From a virus, in the IMG/VR virus record IMGVR_UViG_3300009431_000431, positions 1 through 29,470 of that record: a stretch of DNA of 29,470 nucleotides, one strand, 5' to 3'. Made by a program: the position numbers and the translations under genes. Positions 1,295-28,756 of the stretch are shown here, in pieces. Numbering within the stretch: the first letter of the stretch is position 1; the number at the start of each line of letters is the position of its first letter. The notes beneath the pieces are model-generated. The model was not told the DNA's origin. It did no database searches and worked only from the letters and a program-made list of their open reading frames with translations.

Positions 1295-2784
1295 TGGTCC
1301 AGTACATCGACCACGACGTAGATCTACGCGGCGCGGTCTTGGCCCTTTGGGACTGCTACGCGGACGAGGTCCTGGTGGAGGGGCCCGCCGGCACCGGCAA
1401 GACGCGAGGGCTCCTCGAGCGATCCCTCTGGGTGGCCGAGACCTTCCCCATGTCGCGCCAGCTCTGGGCTCGCCAGACGCTCAGATCGCTCAGACAGTCA
1501 GTGCTCGTCACCTGGGAGAGCGAGGTCATCTGGCCCGGACACCAGTGCCTCCACGGCCGGGCGCAGCGCGAGAACCGGGAGCTCTACCGCTGGCCCAACG
1601 GGAGCGAGATCATCCTCGCGGGCATGGACACCCCCGAAAAGATCTTCTCCAGCCAGTACGACATCATCTGGGTCTGGGAGGCCCGGGAGGTCAGCGCGGA
1701 TGCCTTCCAAACGCTCCTGCGCGCCAACCGCAACGGCGTGCTCCCCTGGCAGCAGATCGTCGCGGACACCAACCCCGGCCCCCGCACGCACCACCTGAAC
1801 CGCCGCTTCCCGCACGGACACCGCGAGCTGCCCGCGGACCATCCCGGGCGACAGATCCGACCGGGCGATTCCCAGAACCAGCAGGTCCGACTGATCTCGC
1901 GCCACGTCGACAATCCCGCCTTCTACAACGAGGACGGAAGCCTCACCGAGCGCGGCTCCGCCTACATGCGCAAGCTGGAGCGCCTCACCGGAGCTCGCCG
2001 GCGCAACCTGCTCGAAGGCGTCTGGGCCTCGGAGGAGGGCGTGGTCTGGGAGGAGTACGACGAGGAGGTCCACCGCATCGACCCGAGCGATGTCCCGCCG
2101 CTGAATTGGTACTTCTTCTCCTTCGACAAGGGCGTGCGCCACCCCGGCTGCCTCCAGGTCTGGGGCGTCGATGGCGACGACCGGATGTACCGCGTGGCAG
2201 AGGTCTACAAGGTCGGGATGGATCTCGACTGGTGGGCCAACGTGGTGGTCGAGCTCCAGACGGAGTTCCGCTGTAAGGCCGCGGTGTCCGACCACCACCC
2301 CGAGTGGATCTCCCGGTTCAACGACGTGCTCAATGACCACGGCGAGCGGCGCCTATTCCGCAACGCCAACAAGGACATCGAGACCGGGCTCCAGATGGTG
2401 CAGAAGGGCCTGTCGCTGCGGGAGAACGGGCCGCGCATCTTCCTGGTGCGCGGGGCGCTCCGCTACGGTAGGTGCCCGCTGCGCGCGGAGGAGCTCAAGC
2501 CGGTCTGCACCGAGGACGAGATCCTCGACTACGTCTGGGCCAAGTCGGAAGACGGCCAGATCAAGCGTGAGATCCCCGATCCCCTGTGCTCGGACCACGG
2601 CTGCGACGCGATGCGCTACGCCGCTATGTTCCGCTGGCGCAAGGACTTGAGCACGCGAGCAGATCGTCAGCGCTTCCCCGAAGGTACTCTCGGTCACCTC
2701 TTCGGCCACGACGAGATATTGGGGCCGGAAAGGCGCCGTCGAAAAAGGCTTGCGCGGTTCTACCGGCCTCCTGATACACCGTAG
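1294..2784 (+). CDS. terL: terminase large subunit (ATPase-nuclease)
   Basis: This 496-residue protein is the DNA packaging motor and headful nuclease. I chose the ATG at 1294 (TGATG overlap with the upstream stop); an in-frame ATG at 1102 would run through the previous gene and encodes a shadow N-terminus. Walker A is GPAGTGKT at residues 30-37. The likely Walker B is DIIWVWEA, with catalytic Glu129, where the residue before it is Trp128 rather than the usual acidic residue. The C-terminal RNase H-like nuclease shows the expected acids: Asp278 in SFDKGV, Asp333 in AVSDHHPEW and Asp438 in GCDAMRYAAM. The last 45 residues are strongly basic. Length is normal for the family. No small terminase was recognised in the window; it may lie upstream. 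Identification is by motifs and by the adjacent portal and capsid genes. Confidence 0.93.
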   Translation: MVQYIDHDVDLRGAVLALWDCYADEVLVEGPAGTGKTRGLLERSLWVAETFPMSRQLWARQTLRSLRQSVLVTWESEVIWPGHQCLHGRAQRENRELYRWPNGSEIILAGMDTPEKIFSSQYDIIWVWEAREVSADAFQTLLRANRNGVLPWQQIVADTNPGPRTHHLNRRFPHGHRELPADHPGRQIRPGDSQNQQVRLISRHVDNPAFYNEDGSLTERGSAYMRKLERLTGARRRNLLEGVWASEEGVVWEEYDEEVHRIDPSDVPPLNWYFFSFDKGVRHPGCLQVWGVDGDDRMYRVAEVYKVGMDLDWWANVVVELQTEFRCKAAVSDHHPEWISRFNDVLNDHGERRLFRNANKDIETGLQMVQKGLSLRENGPRIFLVRGALRYGRCPLRAEELKPVCTEDEILDYVWAKSEDGQIKREIPDPLCSDHGCDAMRYAAMFRWRKDLSTRADRQRFPEGTLGHLFGHDEILGPERRRRKRLARFYRPPDTP

Positions 2785-2826
2785 GGGCGACTTCCGGCTC
2801 GGGGGGGCTGAACAGGAGTAGGCCGG

Positions 2827-3039
2827 ATGAAGAAGCCGGCGCGGAACCGCTGCTGTGGGGGCATGGGCAAGAGGTCCAAGACCCGCGCCTCGGCGGCCAA
2901 GGTCATGGGTCGCGGGAAGGTCGTCTCGGGCGGCACCGCCTACCCTCCGAAGTCTCGCCGCGGCGCCACCAAGGGGACCCGCCACCTGGGTTCCAAGGGC
3001 GGCGGGAACGTCATGGGCTACGGCCCCAGGGGGCGGTGA
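2827..3039 (+). CDS. small basic Gly/Lys-rich protein, unknown
   Basis: This 70-residue protein is very rich in Lys, Arg and Gly, with a CCGGMGK segment near the N-terminus and no hydrophobic core long enough for a membrane helix. An AGGAG ribosome-binding site precedes the ATG by a short spacer, and its TGA overlaps the ATG of the next small gene (TGATG). The composition suggests nucleic acid binding or a disordered tail, but no family is recognised. Position between terminase and the head genes suggests a minor head protein, or a DNA-charge-neutralising protein packaged or used during packaging; this is inference. Tight coupling to both neighbours and a good ribosome-binding site support a real gene. 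Confidence 0.6.
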   Translation: MKKPARNRCCGGMGKRSKTRASAAKVMGRGKVVSGGTAYPPKSRRGATKGTRHLGSKGGGNVMGYGPRGR

Positions 3040-3209
3040 TGCCGAAGCGCACACGAGGCAAGGCTGCCGGCGTGGGCAAGATGGTCCGCGCTGCTGGAGC
3101 TGGTGGCAAGAAGAAGGGCCAAGGGCCCCGCTCGCGCATCGCGAAGCTGCGCGCGTCCGGCAACAAGAAGGGCGCGTACAGCGCCATCCGCAAGATGAGG
3201 AAACGGTGA
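3039..3209 (+). CDS. tiny highly basic protein, unknown
   Basis: A 56-residue reading frame starts at ATG 3039 and stops with TGA at 3207-3209. It overlaps the upstream stop (TGATG) and the downstream ATG at 3209 (TGATG again). The protein starts MPKRTRGKAAG and ends AIRKMRKR; roughly a third of its residues are Lys or Arg and it contains a KKKGQGPRSR patch. The composition resembles DNA- or RNA-binding tails and small protamine-like proteins, but no family is recognised. Because both junctions are perfect translational-coupling overlaps and the frame fills the gap exactly, I regard it as real. It is the second of two consecutive small basic genes. Confidence 0.6.
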   Translation: MPKRTRGKAAGVGKMVRAAGAGGKKKGQGPRSRIAKLRASGNKKGAYSAIRKMRKR

Positions 3210-4165
3210 TGCTGAGTTTCCAAGAGGCACTCATTCTGAGGCAAGGGTGGGCAGCGAACGCCAATCCCATCGCCTCCAACGGGCTCCAGCCGCAGAACCA
3301 GGACGTGAGCGTCATCGCGCGCACGACCATCTCGGCCGGCGAAGTCGTCATGTTCGACATGGCGCAGTCCGACGCGGCTGTCGCCAGCGCAACCCTCGCC
3401 GCCAGCGATAGCTGTTGGCGGAACGTGATCGCACCCACCGCGGCCGGCATGGCGGCGGGCTACCCGCTGGCTGTGGCTCCCGCAGCCATTACCGACAACG
3501 AGGAGGGGACCGTGCGCGTGCAGGGCATCGTCGATGCTCTCCTCGCTGGGACCAACGTGGTGGGCGACAAGCTCTCCGCGACGACCTCGGGCACTCTGGC
3601 GCGTGCGCTCTCGTACGTGAACGAGCGCGTCGTCGGCTGGGCTCTCGCCGCTGGTGCGACCTCGCAGTCCGTCTACTTCGACGGCCTCGCTGGTGGCTTC
3701 GGTGCGGTGCAGAACCCGCTCCCGACCGGGCTGCAGGTTCCGAACGTGGACATCCTCTGCACCAACCGCACCGGCTCCACGATGGTCGTGGGCGATGTCG
3801 TCATGCTGGACATGATCCAGACCGACGCCGGCACGACCAACGCGACCCTCGGTGACGCCGCCTCTTGCTGGGCCAACGTCCTCACGCCTACCACCGCCAC
3901 GATCGTCGCCGGCTTGCCGCTCTGCGTGGCTCTGGAGACGAACGCGAACGACGTGGTCGGTTCGTACCGCATCGAGGGCATCGTCGATGCCAAGATGGCG
4001 GGCACCAACGCCCTCGGTGACGACCTGGTCGGCGTCGATGCGGCGCTGACCCTGGACCAGGCCGTGGCGGCCACCGAGCACGTCTACGCCGTCGCGCTCG
4101 AGGCCGGTACGGGCGTCCTGTCCTGCTGGCTCCGCGGAGTCGGCGGCTTCGGCGGCGCTGCCTGA
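3209..4165 (+). CDS. duplicated-domain capsid decoration-like protein
   Basis: The ATG at 3209 gives 318 residues; upstream in-frame codons lie in the small basic genes. A GAGGAAA ribosome-binding site precedes the start. The protein consists of a 32-residue lead and two homologous domains, about residues 33-165 and 180-315. Matching blocks are AGEVVMFDMAQSDA / VGDVVMLDMIQTDA, SCWRNVIAPT / SCWANVLTPT and VQGIVDALLAGTNVVGD / IEGIVDAKMAGTNALGD. A related single domain occurs in the gene at 8742, next to the major capsid gene. The pattern of a short Thr/Gly-rich strand followed by G(D/E)VV(M/I) resembles small beta-barrel head-decoration proteins (DUF2190-like), so a capsid surface or stabilising role is inferred. 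It could instead be a minor head or neck component. No enzymatic motif is present. Confidence 0.6.
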   Translation: MLSFQEALILRQGWAANANPIASNGLQPQNQDVSVIARTTISAGEVVMFDMAQSDAAVASATLAASDSCWRNVIAPTAAGMAAGYPLAVAPAAITDNEEGTVRVQGIVDALLAGTNVVGDKLSATTSGTLARALSYVNERVVGWALAAGATSQSVYFDGLAGGFGAVQNPLPTGLQVPNVDILCTNRTGSTMVVGDVVMLDMIQTDAGTTNATLGDAASCWANVLTPTTATIVAGLPLCVALETNANDVVGSYRIEGIVDAKMAGTNALGDDLVGVDAALTLDQAVAATEHVYAVALEAGTGVLSCWLRGVGGFGGAA

Positions 4166-4168
4166 GCC

Positions 4169-6067
4169 ATGCTGGATCTTCGTCCTGCTAGCTGGTTCGA
4201 GGAGATGCAGGTCGCGGAGGACTACCGCGACCAGTTCCTCGATGGTTGGGAGGACATGATCCAGCGGTTCCACGGTCCGGGACACCGGGCCGGGCGTGCG
4301 GACTCGGAGACACACGATCCAGAGAACCACGCTTTCGAGTGGACCAGTCTCATGGTCCCTCAAATGACTGCGTCGAATCCCCGCTCGCGCGTCCGCACCG
4401 CGCGGGCGGGACCTGCCCGAAAGGGCGCCGTCGCCCAGCAGTACGCCCTGAACCGCTGGATCCGGCTGGTCGACATGATGCGTACGAACGAGAAGCTGGC
4501 GACCGACTTCGGCTTCAAGTACGCGATCGGAGCTGTCTTCCCGCGCCCCATGCCGGGGATGCTGGAGACCGGCGATCCCCCCCACTGGCCCTCCTTCAAG
4601 CGTATCTCCCCCCGTCGCTACCTTCAGGATCCCCTCGCGGTCGACTTTGAAGACCAGCGCTGGAGGGCTCACGTCGTCATCGAGGACAAGGAGGACCTGC
4701 TCAAGCGCGCTCGCGCCAAGCCGCGGGAGGGGTGGAACGTCAAGGAGATCGAGAACCTCCCCGCCGGTATCGGGGTGCGCGAGGCGCGCGGGCAGGACGA
4801 GAACCCCGATGGCGTGACCGACACCCTGGACCGCGGCGAGATCGCCTACGTCGTCTTCTGGGTGCCCGAGTACTTCCCCGAGAAGAACAAGAACCCGAAC
4901 AACGGCTACAACGGCGCGCTCCTCACCCTGGGGATCGGCTCGGCCTACAGCACCGCGACCAAGGACCAGGCGGTGTGGCTGCGCAAGCCGATCCCGTACT
5001 TCGGTCCCCGCTGGGGTCCCTACCAGTACGACGGCGCGTACATCGTCCCCGACGACGCGACACCCCTCTCCCCGATCGCCGCGACGACCGCCCAGGCCGA
5101 CCACCTGAACGCGATCGCCCGCGCGATCCAGCGCGCCATCGAGGACTACAAGCGCCTGGCGCTGGTCTCCAACGGGGACCCCGACCTGGAGACCATCGTC
5201 TCCGAGGGCCAACACGGCTTCGTCTACACGACCAACGTGGACGACCTCTCCCGGAACGTCGTGCAGCTCGAGCTCGGCGGGCTGACGCAGCAGTTCCTCG
5301 CTGCGGAGGAACGTGCGCGCCAGAGCCTCGACCGCAACACCGGGCTTCCCGACTCCATGCGGGGGAACGTGGAGGGGGGGGCTACCGCGACCGAGGTCAA
5401 CGCGGCCATGGCGGGTGGGGGCATTCGTGTCTCCCACCACATGAACAAGTTTCGCAAGCTCCTGGCCCGCAGCCTCACCACGGTCGCCTGGTATCTGGAG
5501 TACGACAACAACATCCCCCCCTTCGTCCTGGGCCCCGAGGCTGTGGCCGCCTGGCAGAGCGAGTTCGGTGAGGTCACGGAGGAGGTCTGGATGGCCCCCG
5601 GCCTCAACAAGAAGGGCGGGCAGACCTTCGACGACTTCGACGACCTGGACTTCGAGATCGAGCTCTACTCGATGGAGCGCACCAGCGAGCAGCAGCAGAT
5701 GGCGCTCGCTCAGGAGCTCGACTTCCTGGTGCTCCAGCTCGGGCCGATGATGAGCGACCCTCGGATGCTGCATGTCCGCTTCGAGGACTACCTGGCCCTG
5801 CGCGGCGAGCTGCGCGGGATCACCACCTACGGCCAACTCTTCGACATCGAGCTCGCGCGCAAGATCGCCAAGAAGATGCTGCAGATGGGCAACGTCCAGC
5901 CGAGCGGCACTTCCACGATCCCCCAGCCCAGGCTGGCGTCCGACGTGACTGGCTCGCGCCGCACCAACTCGGGGATCGCTGGCCTGAACCACGCGGAGCC
6001 GAAGCGCACGCTTCCCTCCCGTGAGCTCGCGCGTACCAACGGCTCCGCCCAGGAGGCCTCGTCGTGA
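4169..6067 (+). CDS. portal protein
   Basis: This 632-residue protein sits directly after the terminase cluster and before the scaffold and capsid genes, the normal portal position. It is mostly mixed alpha/beta with a long helical C-terminal half. Portal-like features include the N-terminal WFEEMQVAEDYRDQFLDGW helix; a central stretch (about residues 285-330) with PYQYDGAYIVPDD, then PLSPIAATTAQADHLNAI and a long helix; and a region around GGATATEVNAAMAGGG followed by helices, as in podovirus portals where SATE-type motifs precede the crown. The portal would form the dodecameric ring at one vertex for DNA entry and exit. The ATG at 4169 lies three bases after the previous stop. The last 40 residues are Ser/Thr/Arg-rich and probably disordered. 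No frameshift is seen. Identification rests on position, size and pattern; residue-level homology was not tested. Confidence 0.8.
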   Translation: MLDLRPASWFEEMQVAEDYRDQFLDGWEDMIQRFHGPGHRAGRADSETHDPENHAFEWTSLMVPQMTASNPRSRVRTARAGPARKGAVAQQYALNRWIRLVDMMRTNEKLATDFGFKYAIGAVFPRPMPGMLETGDPPHWPSFKRISPRRYLQDPLAVDFEDQRWRAHVVIEDKEDLLKRARAKPREGWNVKEIENLPAGIGVREARGQDENPDGVTDTLDRGEIAYVVFWVPEYFPEKNKNPNNGYNGALLTLGIGSAYSTATKDQAVWLRKPIPYFGPRWGPYQYDGAYIVPDDATPLSPIAATTAQADHLNAIARAIQRAIEDYKRLALVSNGDPDLETIVSEGQHGFVYTTNVDDLSRNVVQLELGGLTQQFLAAEERARQSLDRNTGLPDSMRGNVEGGATATEVNAAMAGGGIRVSHHMNKFRKLLARSLTTVAWYLEYDNNIPPFVLGPEAVAAWQSEFGEVTEEVWMAPGLNKKGGQTFDDFDDLDFEIELYSMERTSEQQQMALAQELDFLVLQLGPMMSDPRMLHVRFEDYLALRGELRGITTYGQLFDIELARKIAKKMLQMGNVQPSGTSTIPQPRLASDVTGSRRTNSGIAGLNHAEPKRTLPSRELARTNGSAQEASS

Positions 6068-6441: not shown

Positions 6442-7490
6442 CCACCACCCAAGAACGCGGGCAGGGCTTCGCCAGCCCCGCCGACATGAGCAGCGATAAC
6501 CGGTTGCAGGCGGACCGCGCCGTCTTCGATCGCATCAGAGCCAAGCACAGGGACGCGCCGCCGCGCGACGACTCGATCGCAAGCGACATCCGAAACCTTG
6601 CCTCTCAAGGAGCCGAAAGCGCCGAGGCGCGTCCCGAACCCGAACAAGCCGAGGAGCCCCAGCAGTCGCAGGCTCCGGCTCAAACCCCGGGCGAAACGAA
6701 GGAGCCCAGCCCCGAGCGGCAAGCCGCCGAGCAGTTCCTTCGGTTGAAGACCGGGTCGCCACAATCCGTGTTCGACTCGATGACCGAGGACGCCGTCCTG
6801 GCATGGGCGGAGGAGCGTCGGGGTCGAGAGGCCACGGTGGATGTGGCGTTTGCGAGTGCCGCCGAAACCAAGCGCGAGCTCGAACGTCTTAGGACCCTGA
6901 TCGACGAGAAGGTCGCGGAGCCCAAGGGGCCCACCGCGGACGAGCTCGCCGCCGAGGCCACCAAGGCGCTGAAGGACGAACTCTCGCTCACGGATGAGGG
7001 GCTCGCTGCCCTGGACAAAATCGTTGAAGCCCGTCTCGCGCCGCTCCAGGCCGAACTCAAGCAGCGCGATGACCGCGCCCAGCAAGAGCAGGCCCAGCGC
7101 ACGAAGCGCGCCATTGATGAAGCCCGGGGGGGGCTCGCCAAGCGGTTTGGCGGGCTCGCGGACGACACCACGTTCCTCAAGGTCTTCGACGACATGCAGA
7201 GGCTCGAAGACAGCCCTCGCTTCGGCGGTTCCGGCCGCCCGGTGGAGGACTGGATTCCCGAGCTGATGACCGCCGCCGCGCGGATGCACGGACTCGAGGA
7301 GCAGCAGAACGAGGTCGAGGCCGCACGTCAAGCAGCCGAGGAAGATCGCCGCGACCGCGCTGCCGGCACAGTGCAAACCGGGGGGCAGGGGAACACCCAA
7401 CGACGCGCCAAGACCAAGATGGAGCTTGACCGCGCCGTGTACGACGCCATCCGGAAGAAGCACCGCCAGGACAAGTGGGCCGTGGGGTGA
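6438..7490 (+). CDS. capsid scaffolding protein
   Basis: The ATG at 6438 overlaps the previous stop (ATGA) and gives 350 residues; an in-frame ATG at 6273 lies inside the previous gene and is rejected. The protein is highly charged, with a Pro/Glu/Gln-rich disordered segment (about residues 50-95) and long coiled-coil helices (about 130-250 and 285-320). It ends in a basic helical tail, as scaffolds directly upstream of a major capsid gene usually do. The helix core DRAVxDxIRxKHR occurs twice: at residues 26-38 near the N-terminus and at 331-343 near the C-terminus. In P22-type scaffolds the basic C-terminal helix binds coat protein, so both ends may bind capsid. No protease motif is seen. 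Confidence comes from position, composition and length. Confidence 0.8.
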   Translation: MTTTQERGQGFASPADMSSDNRLQADRAVFDRIRAKHRDAPPRDDSIASDIRNLASQGAESAEARPEPEQAEEPQQSQAPAQTPGETKEPSPERQAAEQFLRLKTGSPQSVFDSMTEDAVLAWAEERRGREATVDVAFASAAETKRELERLRTLIDEKVAEPKGPTADELAAEATKALKDELSLTDEGLAALDKIVEARLAPLQAELKQRDDRAQQEQAQRTKRAIDEARGGLAKRFGGLADDTTFLKVFDDMQRLEDSPRFGGSGRPVEDWIPELMTAAARMHGLEEQQNEVEAARQAAEEDRRDRAAGTVQTGGQGNTQRRAKTKMELDRAVYDAIRKKHRQDKWAVG

Positions 7491-7522
7491 CCCCCTAGCT
7501 GCGACCAGCAGCAACCCATTCG

Positions 7523-7530
7523 TAAGGAGG
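7523..7530 (+). promoter_or_regulatory. strong ribosome-binding site of the major capsid gene
   Basis: TAAGGAGG lies 7 bases before the GTG at 7538. It is a nearly complete anti-16S match and fixes the GTG start, as expected for the most highly expressed virion gene. A similar strong site, AGGAGGT at 8731-8737, precedes the decoration gene at 8742. Confidence 0.9.
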
Positions 7531-7537
7531 CCCCCTA

Positions 7538-8728
7538 GTGGCGGGCAACCCCCTGTCGGAGTTCAACGACTTCCAAGAGGGCACAGGACCGAACTACATC
7601 ACCGGTCCGAAGTCCCTCGTCAACGAGTCGCTCCGAAACACCAATCACTTTGGAGTCATGCTCCAGGGTGAGCACAACGGCGTGAAGATCATCCAAGGCG
7701 GCGCGGACATCCGTGAGTCGATCGTCTTCCAGCACAACCAGACTGGTGAGACGTATCAACCGGGACAGTCGCACGACTGGAAGAACCCCCAGCGCTTGCA
7801 GAAGATCGTCGCGAACTGGCGCTACACGATGGTCCATATGTCGTGGACCGAGCAGGAGATCCTGCTCAACGACAAAGTCCAGTACGGCGACGAAGACACG
7901 CGGTTCCAGCAGTTCGTGGACATCCGCAACGAGAAAGAGATGCTGATGTGGAGCGCCAAGTGGGAGCTCCTCGAAGATCTCCTCTGGGCGGAACCCGACA
8001 AGGACAAGATGGAGGGCGAGGGCGAGGGTTACACCGAGCCGTACTCGATCCCCGTCTTCATCAACGAGGACACCACCGGGCTCTTTGCCCGACAAGCGAG
8101 CGGCACCTGGACCGTCATCGAGGGCATCAACCCTTCGGCCAGCTACGCCAACTCGCGCTTCACCCCGCAGCAGCTCACTTACTCGAGCAAGGTGCAGGGC
8201 GCGGACGACAACATTCTGGGCATCTTCGACGAGATGATCGAGGACGTGAGGTTCCAGATCCCTCCGATGCACCAGCAGTACTTCGAGGATCCTCAGCTCA
8301 ACAAGCAGATGATCCTGACGACCAAGGTGGGCAAGAAGGCGTGCCGCGTCCTGCTGCGCGCTGGGCAGTCCCACTACGTCGTCGGCGGACAGGATGCTTC
8401 CTACCCGAGCCCCGCGTACGAGAAGATCCCGATCACTCGGGTCTCGACGCTGGAGACGGCGGAACTCTACGACGACGGCGGAGGCACTCGGGACAACACG
8501 ACCGAGTCCGCTGCCGACCTCAAGGGGCCCCGCTTCTATTGGGTGAACGGTAATTACCTGTTCCCCGTGCTGCACCGCGACAAGTACTTCACGAAGGGCG
8601 AGGTCACCAAGCACCACAACATCCCCGACACTTGGGTGTGTCCCGTGGCGACCTGGTACAACCTCGTCTGCACGTCGCGTCGTCGGCAGGGCATCGTTTC
8701 TCCGTCCGTGGACCTGTACTACGCCTGA
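7538..8728 (+). CDS. major capsid protein
   Basis: This 396-residue protein is most likely the HK97-fold shell subunit. It starts at GTG 7538 after a very strong ribosome-binding site. It lies directly after the scaffold and before a decoration-like gene. The N-terminal region carries long polar beta/helix stretches with conserved aromatics (YQPGQSHDWKNPQRLQKIV, WTEQEILLND), a negatively charged segment around EGEGEGYTEPYSIPVF, and a C-terminal segment ending in SPSVDLYYA, as in many podovirus coat proteins whose C-terminus is a beta-strand. No N-terminal protease-cleaved delta domain is apparent, consistent with a separate scaffold and no visible prohead protease. Identification is by position and expression signals, since motif recognition for coat proteins is weak. 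Confidence 0.8.
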   Translation: MAGNPLSEFNDFQEGTGPNYITGPKSLVNESLRNTNHFGVMLQGEHNGVKIIQGGADIRESIVFQHNQTGETYQPGQSHDWKNPQRLQKIVANWRYTMVHMSWTEQEILLNDKVQYGDEDTRFQQFVDIRNEKEMLMWSAKWELLEDLLWAEPDKDKMEGEGEGYTEPYSIPVFINEDTTGLFARQASGTWTVIEGINPSASYANSRFTPQQLTYSSKVQGADDNILGIFDEMIEDVRFQIPPMHQQYFEDPQLNKQMILTTKVGKKACRVLLRAGQSHYVVGGQDASYPSPAYEKIPITRVSTLETAELYDDGGGTRDNTTESAADLKGPRFYWVNGNYLFPVLHRDKYFTKGEVTKHHNIPDTWVCPVATWYNLVCTSRRRQGIVSPSVDLYYA

Positions 8729-8741
8729 TTAGGAGGTCAAC

Positions 8742-9296
8742 ATGGCATGGCTGTTTCATCCGACTGACGGGCCTGGTAACGGACTGTTCCCGGTCACTCA
8801 TCGCTGTAATGCGACCAACCGCACGGGCGATACGCTGCTCGTGGGCGAGGTCGTCATTTTCGACACCCTGCTCGGCACCGATGTCGATGACTTGACGCCG
8901 GGCTCTACCGATTCGACATCCGGCGACGACACTTCACAGTGGAACAACGTCGTCGCTCCGACGCAGGATTCCTCGACAGGCATCGACGCCTACACCATCT
9001 TCGGGTTCAACGGAGGTCGGTTGGGCACTGGCGGTATTCCCGCCGACAACGCCCTCGCCGACATCATCTACTTTGGATTCGGCGAGGGGCTGGTGCAGGA
9101 CGATACCGACAGCGTCGCGATCGGCGACTTCCTCGGTGTGGAGACGGACGGTTCCTTCCGTGCCGACCACGCCGCGGCGGATCTCCTGATCGCACAATGC
9201 CGCGAGGCCTTGACGACGCCGACTGCGGCTACGTTGGCCAAGGTCTTCCTCGCCGGCACGTTCCTGGGCATGTGGTACAACACCGCCGCGACCTAG
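8742..9296 (+). CDS. capsid decoration-like protein, single domain
   Basis: This 184-residue protein has a strong AGGAGGT ribosome-binding site (8731-8737) and starts at ATG 8742. Residues 23-75 match the domain found twice in the protein at 3209: NRTGDTLLVGEVVIFDT and then W-x-N-V-V-A-P-T correspond to NRTGSTMVVGDVVMLDM and WANVLTPT there. The rest diverges, with an acidic loop and a helical C-terminus. Location beside the major capsid gene and likely high expression suggest a capsid-decorating or stabilising subunit; this is inference. It is followed by a hairpin that may end the head transcript. Confidence 0.6.
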   Translation: MAWLFHPTDGPGNGLFPVTHRCNATNRTGDTLLVGEVVIFDTLLGTDVDDLTPGSTDSTSGDDTSQWNNVVAPTQDSSTGIDAYTIFGFNGGRLGTGGIPADNALADIIYFGFGEGLVQDDTDSVAIGDFLGVETDGSFRADHAAADLLIAQCREALTTPTAATLAKVFLAGTFLGMWYNTAAT

Positions 9297-24418: not shown

Positions 24419-25322
24419 GGGGGAGCTCCTCGCCGGGCTCCTCGGCGGCGTCGACCTCCTCCTGGAGCTCCTCGGCGCGGGTCGACTCCGCCGGCGCCAC
24501 GGTGAAGTGGTCCTCGCGCGTGGTGTTGCCGTCCTTCATCGACATGAACCACTCGCGCAGGTCCGTCAGCTCGCGGGCGTCGATGTCCGCGACCGGGTGC
24601 CCGAGCTTGTCCTCGAGCATCGCCTGGGTTACGGCGAAGTCCTTGTCGTAGGCAAGGAGGAGCTTCTTGACGGTGTCCTTGCGGCTCTTCTGCAGGTCCC
24701 TTCGGGCGTGCGCCGTCGCGGTCTCCTCGCACTTCTCCTCGGCGTCCTCGATCAGGTCGAAGGGGAGGAGTTGCAGGAGGCAGTTCCGCACGGCGAGCGA
24801 TGCGCGGCGGTTGACGAGCTCGCGGCGGTCGCGCTCCGTCTCGGGCTTGAGCTCGACCGTGGTGGGCCTCCCGTCCTCCCAGACCTTGCGCTGGATCTTG
24901 TTCGGGAAGCGGTCGCTCGCGTACTTCCAGGTGTTCGTCTCCGCGTCGTGGGCCCAGGCTTCGAGCTGGATCCACTCCTCGTTGTCCTCGGTGGGGATGA
25001 TCGTGAAGCCCGAGCGGATGTTCCCCCAGGCCTGCGCCGCGGCGTGCGCCAGGTGGATCGAGGCGCCGGTGACTTGCTTGCTGCCGCGGGGAAACTTGTA
25101 GCGGGCCTTCTCCGCGAACGTGGCTCGCTCGCAGGCGCCCATGAGGCGCTGGAAGGCGGCCATCTCATCCCGCGGGAACTTCTTGGCGACGATGATCGCG
25201 CTCTGGATCTCCGTCATGGCGCGGGTCGCCAGGGCGCCCTCGACGCCACCTTCGATTTGCGCGGTGACGGCTTGGCCGAGGTCGAGCTCGTCAGCGAGAG
25301 CGGGTTGGGTCTCTTCGGTCAT
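24408..25322 (-). CDS. probable single-strand annealing protein (RecT-class partner)
   Basis: This 304-residue protein starts at ATG 25320-25322 (MTEETQPALADELDL), overlapping the exonuclease stop by ATGA; an in-frame extension to 25718 lies inside that gene and is rejected. The core (about residues 35-200) matches a phage annealing-protein pattern that I recognise: IQSAIIVAKKFPRDEMAAF, ARYKFPRGSKQVTGASIHLA, AWGNIRSGF, then basic NRRASLAVRNCLLQLLPF. The last 60 residues are acidic. In RecE/RecT-type systems an exonuclease makes 3' overhangs and the annealing protein pairs them with complementary strands. I am confident in the pairing with the exonuclease, less so in the exact family (RecT, Erf or a separate class). 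The seven N-terminal residues are shared with the coiled-coil gene at 27400. Confidence 0.65.
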   Translation of the reverse strand: MTEETQPALADELDLGQAVTAQIEGGVEGALATRAMTEIQSAIIVAKKFPRDEMAAFQRLMGACERATFAEKARYKFPRGSKQVTGASIHLAHAAAQAWGNIRSGFTIIPTEDNEEWIQLEAWAHDAETNTWKYASDRFPNKIQRKVWEDGRPTTVELKPETERDRRELVNRRASLAVRNCLLQLLPFDLIEDAEEKCEETATAHARRDLQKSRKDTVKKLLLAYDKDFAVTQAMLEDKLGHPVADIDARELTDLREWFMSMKDGNTTREDHFTVAPAESTRAEELQEEVDAAEEPGEELPLGE

Positions 25323-26275
25323 CGTTGGGGTTCTCCTGCGTCGAGTTGATTCCTGGCCCACCGCGGCAGGCCGATTGGGGAGATCCGGGCACCGTACCCG
25401 GGCCATTGATCCTTCTCGTAGCACCAGGCCAGCTTCTTGAGGGCGAGCTCGTTCTCCCTGCGGCCCCGCTCGATGTCGCGCCGATCCAGCACGTAGACCC
25501 CCACCCCGTAGGGCGGGTACTTCTCGACCACGACGAAGACGAAGTCCGTCACGGTCCCCTCCCCGAGCACGGCGTTGACGCCGTCCAAGTACCACGGCGC
25601 CTGTCGGTAGTAGCCGAAGGCGGCCATGGCGCGGGAGAAGGCCTCGGGCCGGGCATCGCGGGAGCTCTTGAGATCGACGAGAAGGTTGCGTGACTCGCCG
25701 CTCACGTCGGGCCGACACCGGCAGAGGAGTCCGGTGGTTGGATCGACCCAGACGTAGGAGCTTTCCTTGAGGCCCAGCCCGAGGACATGGCGTGCGGCCG
25801 GCGTGCGTTCGATTGCTTGGCGGATGGGGTCGAGCGAGTCGAGCTGGTGCCTGGGGAGCCGGATCTTGCCCTCGTTCTCATCGAGCCAGGGCTGCAGGAC
25901 TGCGGCCTTCCACTTCGCGGTGTTGACCTTGCCCTCCTTGTAGCGGGCGTTGAAGGTCTTACCCTTGGGCTTCTCGGGGGGCTCCCCGCAGTAGCGGGCC
26001 TCGTACTCGTCGGGCTGCAGGACTGCGTAGTGGATGGCCTCGCCCCAGAGCATGTCGGGGGTGGGTTGCTCGGGGAAGTCGAGGGAGGCCTTCAGGTGCG
26101 CCGGGGAGCGCAGGATGAGACCGATCTTGGAGGAGTTCAGGGCGTCCCAGGAGTGGTAGACCTCGGAGGGCACGTCCTCGTAGCGGCCGGGGGGCGGCTT
26201 GTGCCAGGGGAACTCCTCCTCCTCCTCGGCGTAGTCGCGGATCTCGTAGCCCAGGGCGTCCGTCTCGGCCTCCAT
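25319..26275 (-). CDS. RecE-type PD-(D/E)XK exonuclease
   Basis: This 318-residue protein resembles the RecE (exonuclease VIII, DUF3799) nuclease domain along its length. Visible signatures: YHSWDALNSSKIGLILRSP near the N-terminus, LWGEAIHYAVLQPDEY, CRCRPDV, LLVDLKSSRDA (the D...E/K active-site segment), FGYYRQAPWYLDGV, FVVVEKYPPYGVGVYVLDR and a C-terminal DQWPGYG. These correspond to the nuclease motifs of the family. It would degrade dsDNA 5'-to-3' to make single-stranded ends for the annealing protein, whose start it overlaps by ATGA. The ATG at 26273-26275 has no clear ribosome-binding site. It is transcribed divergently from the helix-turn-helix gene at 26350. Confidence 0.85.
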   Translation of the reverse strand: MEAETDALGYEIRDYAEEEEEFPWHKPPPGRYEDVPSEVYHSWDALNSSKIGLILRSPAHLKASLDFPEQPTPDMLWGEAIHYAVLQPDEYEARYCGEPPEKPKGKTFNARYKEGKVNTAKWKAAVLQPWLDENEGKIRLPRHQLDSLDPIRQAIERTPAARHVLGLGLKESSYVWVDPTTGLLCRCRPDVSGESRNLLVDLKSSRDARPEAFSRAMAAFGYYRQAPWYLDGVNAVLGEGTVTDFVFVVVEKYPPYGVGVYVLDRRDIERGRRENELALKKLAWCYEKDQWPGYGARISPIGLPRWARNQLDAGEPQR

Positions 26276-26313
26276 AGGGCCCAGAATGCCGCGGATTGCA
26301 TCCGATTTCCAGC

Positions 26314-26343
26314 TTGAAGTCCCGGGGATCGCCCCGGTACAGT
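26314..26343 (+). promoter_or_regulatory. candidate promoter with a palindromic operator
   Basis: TTGAAG (26314-26319) and TACAGT (26338-26343) are separated by 18 bases and make a plausible sigma70-type promoter reading right. The spacer holds the inverted repeat CCGGGG-ATCG-CCCCGG (26322-26337), which a dimeric regulator could bind. The predicted start would fall at or next to the ATG of the helix-turn-helix gene. The region lies in the 74-base gap between the divergent exonuclease and regulator genes. No comparable clear promoter was found toward the minus-strand operon. Confidence 0.5.
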
Positions 26344-26349
26344 CGGGCC

Positions 26350-26586
26350 ATGGTCAAGACCAGAAAGCAGCGCGCGGGAAGGGCCATACTCGAGCGCGCG
26401 GTCACCTGGGCGGGCTCGAAGCCTGCCCTGGCCGCTGAGTTGAGGGTTTCCGAGACCACGATTCGGGAGTGGATCGTCATGGGGAGGGCGCCGGGGCCGG
26501 CGGCGCGGCTCCTGGCGAAGCTCCTGGTCGGGGAGGACGGGTTCAGCGACGACGAGCGCGAGCTGGAGCGGGCTCTGAGGGCCTGA
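26350..26586 (+). CDS. Cro/CI-like helix-turn-helix regulator
   Basis: This 78-residue protein (from ATG 26350) has a lambda-repressor-like helix-turn-helix: GSKPALAAELRVSETTIREW, followed by a glycine/proline turn and another helix. An in-frame ATG at 26296 would include MHPISSLKSRG and cross the operator; I prefer 26350 because the helix-turn-helix needs no extra N-terminus. No ribosome-binding site is visible before 26350, but the predicted transcript may begin at the ATG, as in lambda cI from PRM. It is small, so either a Cro-type repressor or an activator. It is likely to regulate the divergent recombination operon and itself. Confidence 0.7.
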   Translation: MVKTRKQRAGRAILERAVTWAGSKPALAAELRVSETTIREWIVMGRAPGPAARLLAKLLVGEDGFSDDERELERALRA

Positions 26587-26607: not shown

Positions 26608-27403
26608 GATGTCTACCCGCTGGCAGGGCGTCCTGGCTAGCTATCCGGAGAGCTCCCGGGTCAACCGGCTCTCCATCGGCGCGGAGGCGCTGTACCTGCG
26701 TCTGCTCGTCCTCTCGGACGACTACGGGCGCTATCACGGTGCTGCGCACGAGGTCCTTGGGAGGGCTCTCACGCGGCGCTGGATGGCGGGGGAGGTGCGT
26801 CTTGACGATGTCGAGGACTGGCTCTGCCAGCTTGAGACGGTCGGCCTGGCGCGGCGCTACGAGATCGGGGACGAGGCGTTCCTGGAGCTGGTGGACTTCG
26901 TCACGGCGACGGATCCGAAGCGCAAGCGGGCCCGGTTCCCGGACCCTGGGGACCAGACGGGGACCAGACGGGGACCAGACGGGGACGAAACTGCCCCCGC
27001 AGACAGAAGACAGAAGACCGAAGACCGAAGACCAAAGACAGAACAGGGCCCGGGGACATCCCCAGATGGGGAGATTGTGGAGAACTCTGTGGATAACTTT
27101 CCCACAACCGGGACAAGGCCCTTTGACCCTGACCAGAGGGCCGAAGTCGTCCGGCGCCTGGTCGTCGAGGGCTTGGTCCCTGCTGGACTGGCTCTCAACA
27201 CGGCCCCAGAGGCCATGACGCTGCTCGACCGGGGCAACTGGCTGGGAGGCTTCGACCTGGACCAAGTGACCGCTCGGCTGGCTCAGATCGTCGAGGTGGC
27301 CCCAGGGGCCTCGAACCCTGGAGGCTTCCTCCTGCACATGCTCCGCGAGGACTCCGCGGGCAAGACCGGACCCATCACCCTGAAACAGAGGCAAGGACCA
27401 TGA
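26597..27403 (+). CDS. phage replication initiator-like protein (O/DnaD-type)
   Basis: 268 residues from ATG 26597, or 264 from ATG 26609. The N-terminal 110 residues look like the winged-helix domain of phage replication organisers: RVNRLSIGAEALYLRLLVL, DDYGRYHGAAHEVLGRAL and a gLxxxYEIGDEAFLELVDF-type end. Residues 118-170 are low-complexity, charged linker (QTGTRRGPDGDETA, then RRQKTEDRRPKTEQ) encoded by the origin repeats. The C-terminal 95 residues are helical (FDPDQRAEVVRRLVVEGL). Like lambda O, this gene appears to carry its own origin. It would bind origin repeats and load host DnaB, but helicase-loading motifs were not identified. The stop overlaps the next start (ATGA). Confidence 0.6.
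   Translation: MTPRMSTRWQGVLASYPESSRVNRLSIGAEALYLRLLVLSDDYGRYHGAAHEVLGRALTRRWMAGEVRLDDVEDWLCQLETVGLARRYEIGDEAFLELVDFVTATDPKRKRARFPDPGDQTGTRRGPDGDETAPADRRQKTEDRRPKTEQGPGTSPDGEIVENSVDNFPTTGTRPFDPDQRAEVVRRLVVEGLVPAGLALNTAPEAMTLLDRGNWLGGFDLDQVTARLAQIVEVAPGASNPGGFLLHMLREDSAGKTGPITLKQRQGP
26948..26986 (+). repeat. iteron-like 11-base tandem repeats
   Basis: GGGGACCAGAC repeats three times exactly (26948-26980), with a fourth partial copy (GGGGAC) to 26986. The 11-base unit is not a multiple of three, so it shifts frame and was not built by codon duplication. It lies inside the initiator gene, upstream of a second array and a DnaA box. Initiator-binding iterons are usually of this size. Confidence 0.75.
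27001..27042 (+). repeat. six 7-base tandem repeats
   Basis: Six copies of AGACMRA-type units (AGACAGA, AGACAGA, AGACCGA, AGACCGA, AGACCAA, AGACAGA) run without gaps. They encode a 7-residue repeat (RRQKTED, RRPKTEQ). They lie 14 bases after the 11-base array and 33 bases before the DnaA-box cluster, and are purine-rich on the plus strand. Confidence 0.75.
27076..27106 (+). other. probable replication origin element with DnaA boxes
   Basis: TGTGGATAA at 27088-27096 is the exact complement of the DnaA box TTATCCACA. TGTGGAGAA at 27076-27084 differs by one base and TTTCCCACA at 27098-27106 by two, so three boxes fall within 31 bases at spacings of 10-12. This stretch is much richer in A/T than its surroundings. 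With the two upstream repeat arrays it forms a candidate origin (26948-27106) inside the initiator gene. Host DnaA dependence is inferred. Confidence 0.6.
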
Positions 27404-28413
27404 CGGAAGAAACCCAGCCTGTAGAGGCTACGAGCTTCGACGAGGCCGTGACGCAGGCCCTCGAACGCTACTCCCCCACCGACGCTGCGATCGGGCAGCT
27501 CGCGGCCGACTACGGCGAGCTCGACGTGGAGGGCATCGACGACAAGAAAGGCCTGGCCCTGGTGCACACCGCGCGGATCGACGTGCGGGACAAGCGCGTG
27601 GGGGTCGAGAAGACCAGGAAGGCGCTCAAGAAGGACGCCCTCGAGTTCGGCCGGCGGGTCGACGCGGAGGCGAAGAGGCTCACGGGGCTGCTCACGCCGA
27701 TCGAGACCCGGCTGCACCGGATCGAGAAGGCGGTCGAGAACGAGAAGCAGCGGATCCGCGAGGAGGAGGAGCGCGCCGAGCGCGCCCGGCAGCAGGCGCG
27801 GCTCGACAAGCTGGCGGCGCTGGGAGACTCGACCCCGGCGATCGAGGTGCTGGCGATGGACGAGGAGGCCTTTGGGGTCCGGCTGGCGAACGCCCAGCAC
27901 GCCTACGACCGGCGGAAGGCCCGGGAGGAGGAGGAGCGCCTGGCGCACGAGAAGGCCGAGGCGGAGCGGAAGGCCAAGGAGGCGGCCGAGCGGAAGGAGC
28001 TGGAGGAGGAGCTCGCCCGGGAGCGGGAGGAGCGGCGCAAGGCTGAGGAGGCCGCGGCGCTGGCGAAGGCCCGCGAGCAGCAGGAGCGCGAGGCTGCGGA
28101 GGCCCAGCTCGCCAAGGAGCGGGAGGAGCTCCGGGCGGAGCGGGAGCGGGTGGCTGCAGAGAAGCGCCAGGTGGAGATCGCCCAGGCGAAGGAGCGTGCG
28201 GCCCAGGAGGAGCGGGAGCGCATCGCGCGCCAGGAGCGTGCGGAGGCGGAGCACAAGCGCGAGCTCGAGCGTCTGGCTCCCCAGCGTGAGAAGATCCAGG
28301 TGTTCGTGGAGCGGCTCCGTGCGCTGCCGATCCCGGTGGTGGACGTGGAGGACGAGATCCTCGCGATCGTCGAGTCCGCGGCGAAGGAGATCGAGGAGCT
28401 GCTCGGTGGCTGA
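27400..28413 (+). CDS. long coiled-coil early protein (DUF1351-like)
   Basis: This 337-residue protein is highly charged; about residues 95-290 are nearly continuous Glu/Lys/Arg/Ala coiled coil (REEEERAERARQQARL, ERKAKEAAERKELEEELARE). The N-terminal 90 residues are a separate domain (YGELDVEGIDDKKGLALVHT, VEKTRKALKKDALEFG) like the DUF1351-type phage proteins that accompany RecE/RecT-type recombination genes. It starts at ATG 27400, overlapping the initiator stop (ATGA). Its first seven residues, MTEETQP, equal those of the annealing protein on the opposite strand. The C-terminus ends FVERLRALPIPVVDVEDEIL. A link to recombination is suggested by that shared start and by family context; no enzymatic motif is seen. 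Confidence 0.6.
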   Translation: MTEETQPVEATSFDEAVTQALERYSPTDAAIGQLAADYGELDVEGIDDKKGLALVHTARIDVRDKRVGVEKTRKALKKDALEFGRRVDAEAKRLTGLLTPIETRLHRIEKAVENEKQRIREEEERAERARQQARLDKLAALGDSTPAIEVLAMDEEAFGVRLANAQHAYDRRKAREEEERLAHEKAEAERKAKEAAERKELEEELAREREERRKAEEAAALAKAREQQEREAAEAQLAKEREELRAERERVAAEKRQVEIAQAKERAAQEERERIARQERAEAEHKRELERLAPQREKIQVFVERLRALPIPVVDVEDEILAIVESAAKEIEELLGG

Positions 28414-28756
28414 CGCCCACCCCGTCCTCTGCCCGACGTGCCAGAAGCGTGGTCGAGTGATCGACTCGCGTCTGTCGGGGAACACGATCCGTCGCCGGCG
28501 GAAGTGCTGCGACGAGAGGTGGACTACCTACGAGATCCTGGCTGGGAAGTTGCCCGGGGTCCGTGCGCCGCTGGATCGGATCGCACTCCTGGAGCAGCAG
28601 GTGGAGGCGCTGGAGCACGCGCTGGCTGCGGTGGGGGAGTTTTCGACGACGGTGCTGCGGCGAGTGGTGAAGAAGAGGCCGGTTCGTAAGCCGGTGGAGC
28701 CGAACGGTGCGATCGGGAGGCTGTGGGAGCGCGGCAAGGGGGTGAGGGATGACTGA
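28406..28756 (+). CDS. NrdR-like zinc-ribbon protein without ATP cone
   Basis: From GTG 28406 (8-base overlap with the previous gene) this gives 116 residues: CPTCQKRGRVIDSRL, then GNTIRRRRKCCDERWTTYEI. This is the N-terminal zinc ribbon of NrdR (CPxC ... VIDSRL ... RRRxC ... ERxTTxE). Unlike NrdR, the second pair is CC with two residues missing, so zinc binding may be altered, and there is no ATP-cone domain. A following coiled coil (IALLEQQVEALEHALAAVG) and a basic C-terminus (RRVVKKRPVRKPVEP) suggest dimerisation and nucleic acid binding. Possible roles are phage transcription control, including ribonucleotide reductase regulation, but the function is not shown. Confidence 0.6.
   Translation: MADAHPVLCPTCQKRGRVIDSRLSGNTIRRRRKCCDERWTTYEILAGKLPGVRAPLDRIALLEQQVEALEHALAAVGEFSTTVLRRVVKKRPVRKPVEPNGAIGRLWERGKGVRDD

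Follow-up and report, generated by a model that had tools for sequence, protein, structure and literature searches.

The stretch of DNA analysed, referred to below as the window, is a 29,470 bp virus record; its left part carries structural genes, its right end genes for recombination and replication. The features that surround and lie within the gene for a putative replication initiator are listed in Table 1. A small gene at 28406-28756, shortly after the initiator operon, codes for an NrdR-like zinc ribbon (PF22811, E 3e-11). None of the genes examined in the fragment could be recognised as coding for a helicase or a helicase loader.

Table 1. Features of the initiator region, in window coordinates (L003 is a viral contig with a related C-terminal domain)
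Feature	Position	Strand	Basis
PDDEXK exonuclease VIII-like gene	25319-26275	-	
Small HTH gene upstream of the initiator gene, YdaS-like	26296..26586	+	Below Pfam cut-off; L003 has a comparable small gene in this position
Initiator gene, 268 aa	26597..27403	+	ORF; PHROG 1408/5810; AF2; structural similarity to viral proteins
Putative iteron-binding winged-helix domain, residues 7-102	26615..26902	+	AF2
Array 1, GGGGACCAGAC x3.5, 11-bp period, putative iterons	26948..26986	+	TRF, 100% match
Array 2, AGACAGA/AGACCGA x6.1, 7-bp period, putative unwinding or second binding array	27001..27043	+	TRF, 88%
Lowest-GC 100-mer of the window, candidate unwinding element	27001..27100	.	52% GC vs mean 67.7%
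DnaA-like box 1, TTCTCCACA	27076..27084	-	Pattern match, 1 mismatch
DnaA box 2, TTATCCACA, the sole perfect box of the window	27088..27096	-	Pattern match
DnaA-like box 3, TTTCCCACA, weakest	27098..27106	+	1 mismatch to TTTTCCACA, 2 to TTATCCACA
Helical C-terminal domain, residues 178-253	27128..27355	+	AF2; 54-63% identity with L003
Coiled-coil gene downstream of the initiator gene	27400..28413	+	Kept in L003 (46%)

AF2 modelling of the initiator protein predicted a winged-helix N-terminal domain, a disordered linker and a helical C-terminal domain. The N-terminal domain matched PHROG 1408 (E 2e-7) and PHROG 5810 (E 1e-5), both annotated as 'replication initiation protein'; these matches are weak but consistent. 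Among viral proteins, structure comparison retrieved replisome organizers, an HTH protein of Gordonia phage Horus, the replication protein of Ralstonia phage RSK1 and Mx8 p19. The PHROG assignments and the similarity to viral replisome organizers both point to a replication initiator. A structure search of the PDB with the whole protein returned a list filled by the winged helix, the top alignments being winged-helix DNA-binding proteins with Z of about 7-8, which do not discriminate among functions. A sequence search against solved structures gave nothing meaningful, the C-terminal domain had no match in a PHROG search, and a Pfam search of the protein found no family at E ≤ 1, hence neither Phage_rep_O (PF04492) nor DnaD. 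The initial annotation had called the gene an 'O/DnaD-like' initiator; the word initiator holds, while the O/DnaD label is loose, and this protein may share a distant winged-helix fold with DnaD. The bases of the repeats and boxes described below encode residues ∼118-170 of the protein. As pLDDT was below 50 for nearly all of residues 123-172, this segment does encode only a disordered linker, as had been proposed.

The linker DNA contains two tandem arrays. TRF recovered both sets of repeats reported in the initial annotation: three and a half 11-base repeats, as 3.5 exact copies, and six 7-base repeats, as 6.1 copies at 88%. The 11 bp period of array 1 is about one helical turn, and no further copies of its unit with up to one mismatch were found elsewhere in the window. 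Array 2 sits in a T-free run of 66 nt (26993-27058), longer than any other in the window. Each of the three full 11-mer copies is in a different reading frame, and successive 7-mers likewise shift from frame to frame, which indicates that these are repeats of the DNA and not of the peptide. When the protein was kept fixed and its synonymous codons were redrawn according to the codon usage of the phage, none of 3000 trials reached the lag-11 and lag-7 arrays. The patterns thus stem from selection or mutation at the DNA level and not from the peptide. Direct repeats inside the gene therefore exceed chance according to TRF, the reading frames and resampling, and they recur at the matching place in relatives (see below).

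Downstream of the arrays lies a cluster of three DnaA boxes (defined as having at most one mismatch to TTWTCCACA), one of them perfect, as the initial annotation had it. The cluster spans 31 bp (27076-27106), 90 bp downstream of the iterons, and just two more matches exist in the 29.5 kb of the window (at 8857 and 29216). Second-order Markov simulations of the window yielded three boxes so close together in 0/400 cases, and two boxes within 12 bp also in 0/400. Given the fixed protein, synonymous resampling produced a perfect box with P about 0.003-0.005, so that the boxes, like the arrays, are not accounted for by the protein sequence. The boxes are less than 35 bp from array 2 and fall within the segment 27001-27100, which is the lowest in GC of the whole 29.5 kb, though it is only 48% A+T. 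A hairpin or cruciform was also considered in GGGGACATCCCC and the box segment, but the predicted single-strand fold was no better than that of shuffled sequence. The proposed check by GC skew did not bear the site out, no local switch being present there on the linear fragment.

Searches for close relatives of the whole gene, or of the repeats, found none in phages, plasmids or GTDB genomes. Phage isolates gave only weak matches to the N-terminal domain, and tblastn showed no plasmid encoding a relative of the protein. Relatives of the N-terminal domain were collected first from 15 viral contigs and then from 144 usable loci in viral and GTDB genome collections; they are mostly phages or prophages of Clostridia, with about 22-32% identity to the window domain. 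The 144 loci were reduced to 113 non-redundant genes for counting arrays. At a strict threshold (at least 20/24 self-match at a lag of 3-20), the linkers of 65 of the 113 genes contained an array. Only 3/107 C-terminal coding regions did so, together with 0/113 N-terminal coding regions and 0/565 shuffles. A looser threshold gave a 10/11-bp array in 56/113 linkers (some of the '11' counts stem from the second array, since mixed 5+6-bp units create an 11-bp lag), a 5-7-bp array in 77/113 and both in 48; where both were present, the 10/11-bp array came first in 39 of the 48. The arrays start directly past the DNA coding for the winged-helix domain. Units of the first array include CAATTGCAAT, TCGCCGCAAY and GCAAGCAGAT, and those of the second AATCCG, AATCC and CGAGAAT. 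The repeat sequences of the window are entirely different, while their order, 11-mer and then 7-mer, matches this layout. The comparison with related phages that had been suggested as a check thus revealed two arrays at the matching place and in the matching order.

Several kinds of C-terminal part are found among these relatives, and one of them stands behind another HTH domain in Vibrio phages. An initiator-like HTH protein of Vibrio phage VaK (L343:372-1364) carries this C-terminal domain of the Clostridia family behind such a different head, and its linker has in-frame ENGTLNRP repeats. Among cultured phages, the linker of phiRgIBDN1 gp42 has an 11-bp array and that of Mycobacterium phage Panchino gp57 (L341:586-1464) an 8-bp array of GGAACAGG. 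Panchino gp57 also has an 11-bp CGAGACCCTCG array within the part coding for the winged helix; being a cultured phage, Panchino would be suited to origin testing.

A sole relative of the C-terminal domain was found, on the IMG/VR contig L003; none was found in GTDB genomes. L003 is a partial relative that has in common with the window the C-terminal half of the initiator (54-63%) and the downstream gene (46%); it also has a similar small gene upstream. Its initiator (7254-8330) has a different head, a DUF1376 domain into which an HNH domain is inserted (Pfam match), and a linker with a 6-bp CAGGTT repeat. Its only DnaA box with up to one mismatch in 10 kb is a perfect one (8024-8032), located as in the window at the border between the linker and the C-terminal domain; given the L003 protein, P for this box is about 0.005 (synonymous resampling). 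Both genes also contain the left half-box GTGGAGAAC, in different frames (V-E-N vs R-G-E-P) and with a spacing that differs by 1 bp. The GTGGAGAAC(N)TGTGGATAA pair was considered as a DnaA signature, but its dependability is weakened by its presence in terminase and other unrelated genes; for this reason only the perfect box was relied on in L003. Conservation of a DnaA box at this exact place rests on this one related contig. A segment of ∼130 aa, nuclease-like by eye, lies between the N-terminal domain and the repeats of another initiator (L137:2965-4047). Considering the nuclease-like insertions of L003 and L137, both in the linker region, the initiator linker may be a hot spot for insertions.

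These observations make it likely that the bases at about 26948-27106 are the replication origin of the phage, located inside the part of the initiator gene that codes for the linker. As judged from sequence features, the best reading of its type is an initiator-gene origin like those of lambda O and SPP1 gene 38, with DnaA boxes as in iteron plasmids. The origin embedded in the initiator gene that the initial annotation had put forward is thus supported in part, by the arrays present in relatives, the lowest GC, the sites selected at the DNA level and the recurrence of DnaA boxes inside initiator genes of unrelated phages; DnaA boxes do not belong to the layout of the N-terminal family. The best-supported model would combine an iteron placement of the lambda/SPP1 type with a division of labour of the RK2 type. 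We infer all the binding, opening and loading steps of this model as follows. The winged-helix domain of the initiator would bind the 11-bp iterons, which are spaced by one helical turn, and wrap or bend the DNA. Host DnaA would bind the boxes, which lie about 90-160 bp further downstream. Initiator and DnaA would then jointly open the lowest-GC stretch between them, made up of array 2 and the box segment, and one or the other may keep the strand-biased 7-mers single-stranded. The host helicase would be brought in by the C-terminal domain, by DnaA or by both; its recruitment from the host is proposed because neither a helicase nor a loader was identified among the genes examined. Origin firing would thus be under the dual control of the phage initiator and of host DnaA.

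It might be instead that the phage initiator alone opens the origin and that the DnaA boxes serve to titrate host DnaA or to control transcription. Linkers of the N-terminal family do work without boxes: the idea that DnaA boxes characterise this family was rejected, since the linkers are at background level, with 0 perfect boxes in 27 kb. Further, DnaA acts in lambda via transcription from pR and not via boxes in ori (PMC7466680). Against this stand the position of the window boxes, close to array 2 and inside the lowest-GC stretch, and the independent appearance of boxes beside iteron-like repeats in other initiator genes. The latter emerged from a protein-blind pattern scan for two DnaA boxes 12 bp apart, which found at least 80 loci; among the matches listed, most doublets were intergenic. 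Also among the matches listed, 8/34 doublet-bearing ORFs (dubious ORFs included) matched initiator PHROGs, compared with at most 2/34 of the size-matched control ORFs from the same loci, and the initiator genes with boxes belonged to about five unrelated lineages. They include L013, which matches Pfam Phage_rep_O, the HTH_36/DnaD-like L071, L076 and L077, L079, L084, and the phrog_4707 members L045, L052 and L062. Iteron-like repeats were seen near the boxes by eye, without statistics, in L013, L079 and L084 (GGTAACTAATCAGTTACC, GGGTGCAACCTC and CAACCCAATNAGGTTGTA, respectively). The presence of boxes in initiator genes of other lineages means that the combination of iterons and boxes is not unique to the window phage. 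Opening by the initiator alone is regarded as unlikely. In L045, L052 and L062, the initiator-like HTH protein is only 114-115 aa long, and its last residues before the stop are encoded by two DnaA boxes (PVDNPVDNSLAGA / SLTGA). The ORF L072:1-594, made up of NIVDN/NIRAN repeats, contains DnaA-box-like 12-mers many times in a coding repeat.

The arrays could also be neutral products of replication slippage tolerated by a disordered linker, the boxes a coincidence of codon use, and no origin present. Tandem arrays of the heptamer GAAGACN were found in 15 viral contigs (L144-L158), most of them outside initiators: they lie in portal genes (L145, L146/L149), prohead protease genes (L152/L158) and intergenic DNA as well as in initiators (L150, L151, L154, L155). 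Many of these arrays lie within segments of disordered look. Heptameric repeats are over-represented in bacterial genomes, for which slippage has been proposed (PMC4692102), and a heptamer stays open in all three forward frames. The idea that the 7-mers are specific iterons is weakened by the arrays in portal, protease and intergenic DNA, and the occurrence of the same heptamers in non-initiator phage genes makes the 7-mers the weakest part of the origin reading. Array 2 may therefore be a generic or tolerated slippage repeat, although it may have a role in the window. It resembles the generic heptameric repeats (STRR/SSR) in having 7-bp units such as GAAGACN (PMC4692102), but differs in its setting, an initiator linker in which it directly follows an 11-bp array, much as 5-7-bp arrays come second in the relatives. 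Neutral slippage would not readily account for arrays being far commoner in linkers than in the remaining parts of the same genes, or for their holding a preferred order and period in relatives (10/11, then 5-7). In addition, the initiator linkers that make up 4 of the 15 heptamer contigs each have iteron-like or palindromic repeats just upstream (by eye), an arrangement like that of the window, and the boxes are improbable given the protein in the window and in L003 separately. An explanation of the whole segment by slippage and coincidence thus appears quite improbable.

The initiator might bind its own gene at an autoregulatory or copy-control site, acting through handcuffing or incompatibility, with the origin elsewhere on a missing part of the genome. 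Iterons of plasmids serve control too, the window record may be a genome fragment, and the count of iteron copies covers the window alone. The iterons are nevertheless adjoined by the lowest-GC segment and by DnaA boxes, a combination expected of an origin. The sites lie 350-510 bp into the gene, which is unusual for an operator, and no sigma-70-like promoter was found near the linker sites (a weak test). Only a slim chance is left to this alternative. That the boxes reflect selection on the linker at the protein level is barely credible. This reading appeals to VDN, a conserved peptide that the initiators of the window and of L003 both have at the edge of the C-terminal domain. Against it, GAT accounts for 13% of the Asp codons and T for 6% of third positions, and P is about 0.003-0.005 per gene even with VDN fixed. 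The half-box GTGGAGAAC, too, is read in one frame in the window and in another in L003, an argument tempered by GAGAAC-type pairs in unrelated genes.

An origin in this position can be compared with known systems. The lambda iterons are longer (18-19 bp) and the lambda ori is not known to have a DnaA-box cluster, whereas the window has 11-bp and 7-bp arrays and its initiator no Pfam Phage_rep_O match. Lambda gene O resembles the window in being an initiator gene that holds iterons, with an AT-rich tract in its middle; the lambdoid ori lies mid-gene, where iteron number alters protein length (PMC7466680). In SPP1, the direct repeats of oriL lie within gene 38 and are bound by the replisome organizer gp38; the layout is like that of the window, with direct repeats and an unwinding element inside the initiator gene, although the account of SPP1 makes no mention of DnaA (PMC6316719). 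SPP1 also supplies its own helicase and loader, none being recognised in the window fragment. The iteron plasmids (RK2, P1, F, pSC101) share with the window iterons for a winged-helix Rep, DnaA boxes and a low-GC DUE with short repeats; in RK2-type origins, DnaA boxes and iterons accompany a DUE whose repeats Rep binds as a single strand (PMC4980987). Plasmid origins are, however, described as separate DNA, while the elements of the window are all inside coding sequence. The PHROG 1408-5810 or RepA-like phage initiators (Gordonia Leroy/Horus, phiRgIBDN1 gp42, Panchino gp57) have a homologous or structurally similar winged-helix domain, and some have linker repeat arrays, but the repeat sequences and C-terminal parts are different and the genes are without DnaA boxes. 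A mycobacteriophage origin in or beside repA has been suggested (PMC7157519).

We would propose, tentatively, that the linker is an exchange joint at which recombination swaps the head together with its iterons, while the C-terminal domain and the DnaA boxes, which would face the host, stay. Phage initiators might then often consist of a DNA-binding head and a helicase-recruiting tail, with the linker DNA as the origin. The window and L003 could be one such case, with the same tail and boxes but different heads and repeats, the relatives of the head carrying several unrelated tails.

Origins inside initiator genes are already known, as are origins that combine iterons with DnaA. In the open-access literature, which is what the search covered, no description was found of iterons and DnaA boxes in one coding linker, or of the two-array layout of this large prophage family; the claim to novelty is modest for that reason. 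Since the proposed origin is coding DNA, synonymous recoding can cleanly separate its function from that of the protein. If the origin reading is true, a rule would follow by which an array of ∼10-11 bp and then one of 5-7 bp in the linker of winged-helix initiators predicts origins, and it would apply to a great number of phages and prophages, for the most part uncultured, whose origins are unmapped. DnaA boxes in initiator genes would have arisen in several unrelated lineages, and dependence on host DnaA could be a module that phages gain or lose.
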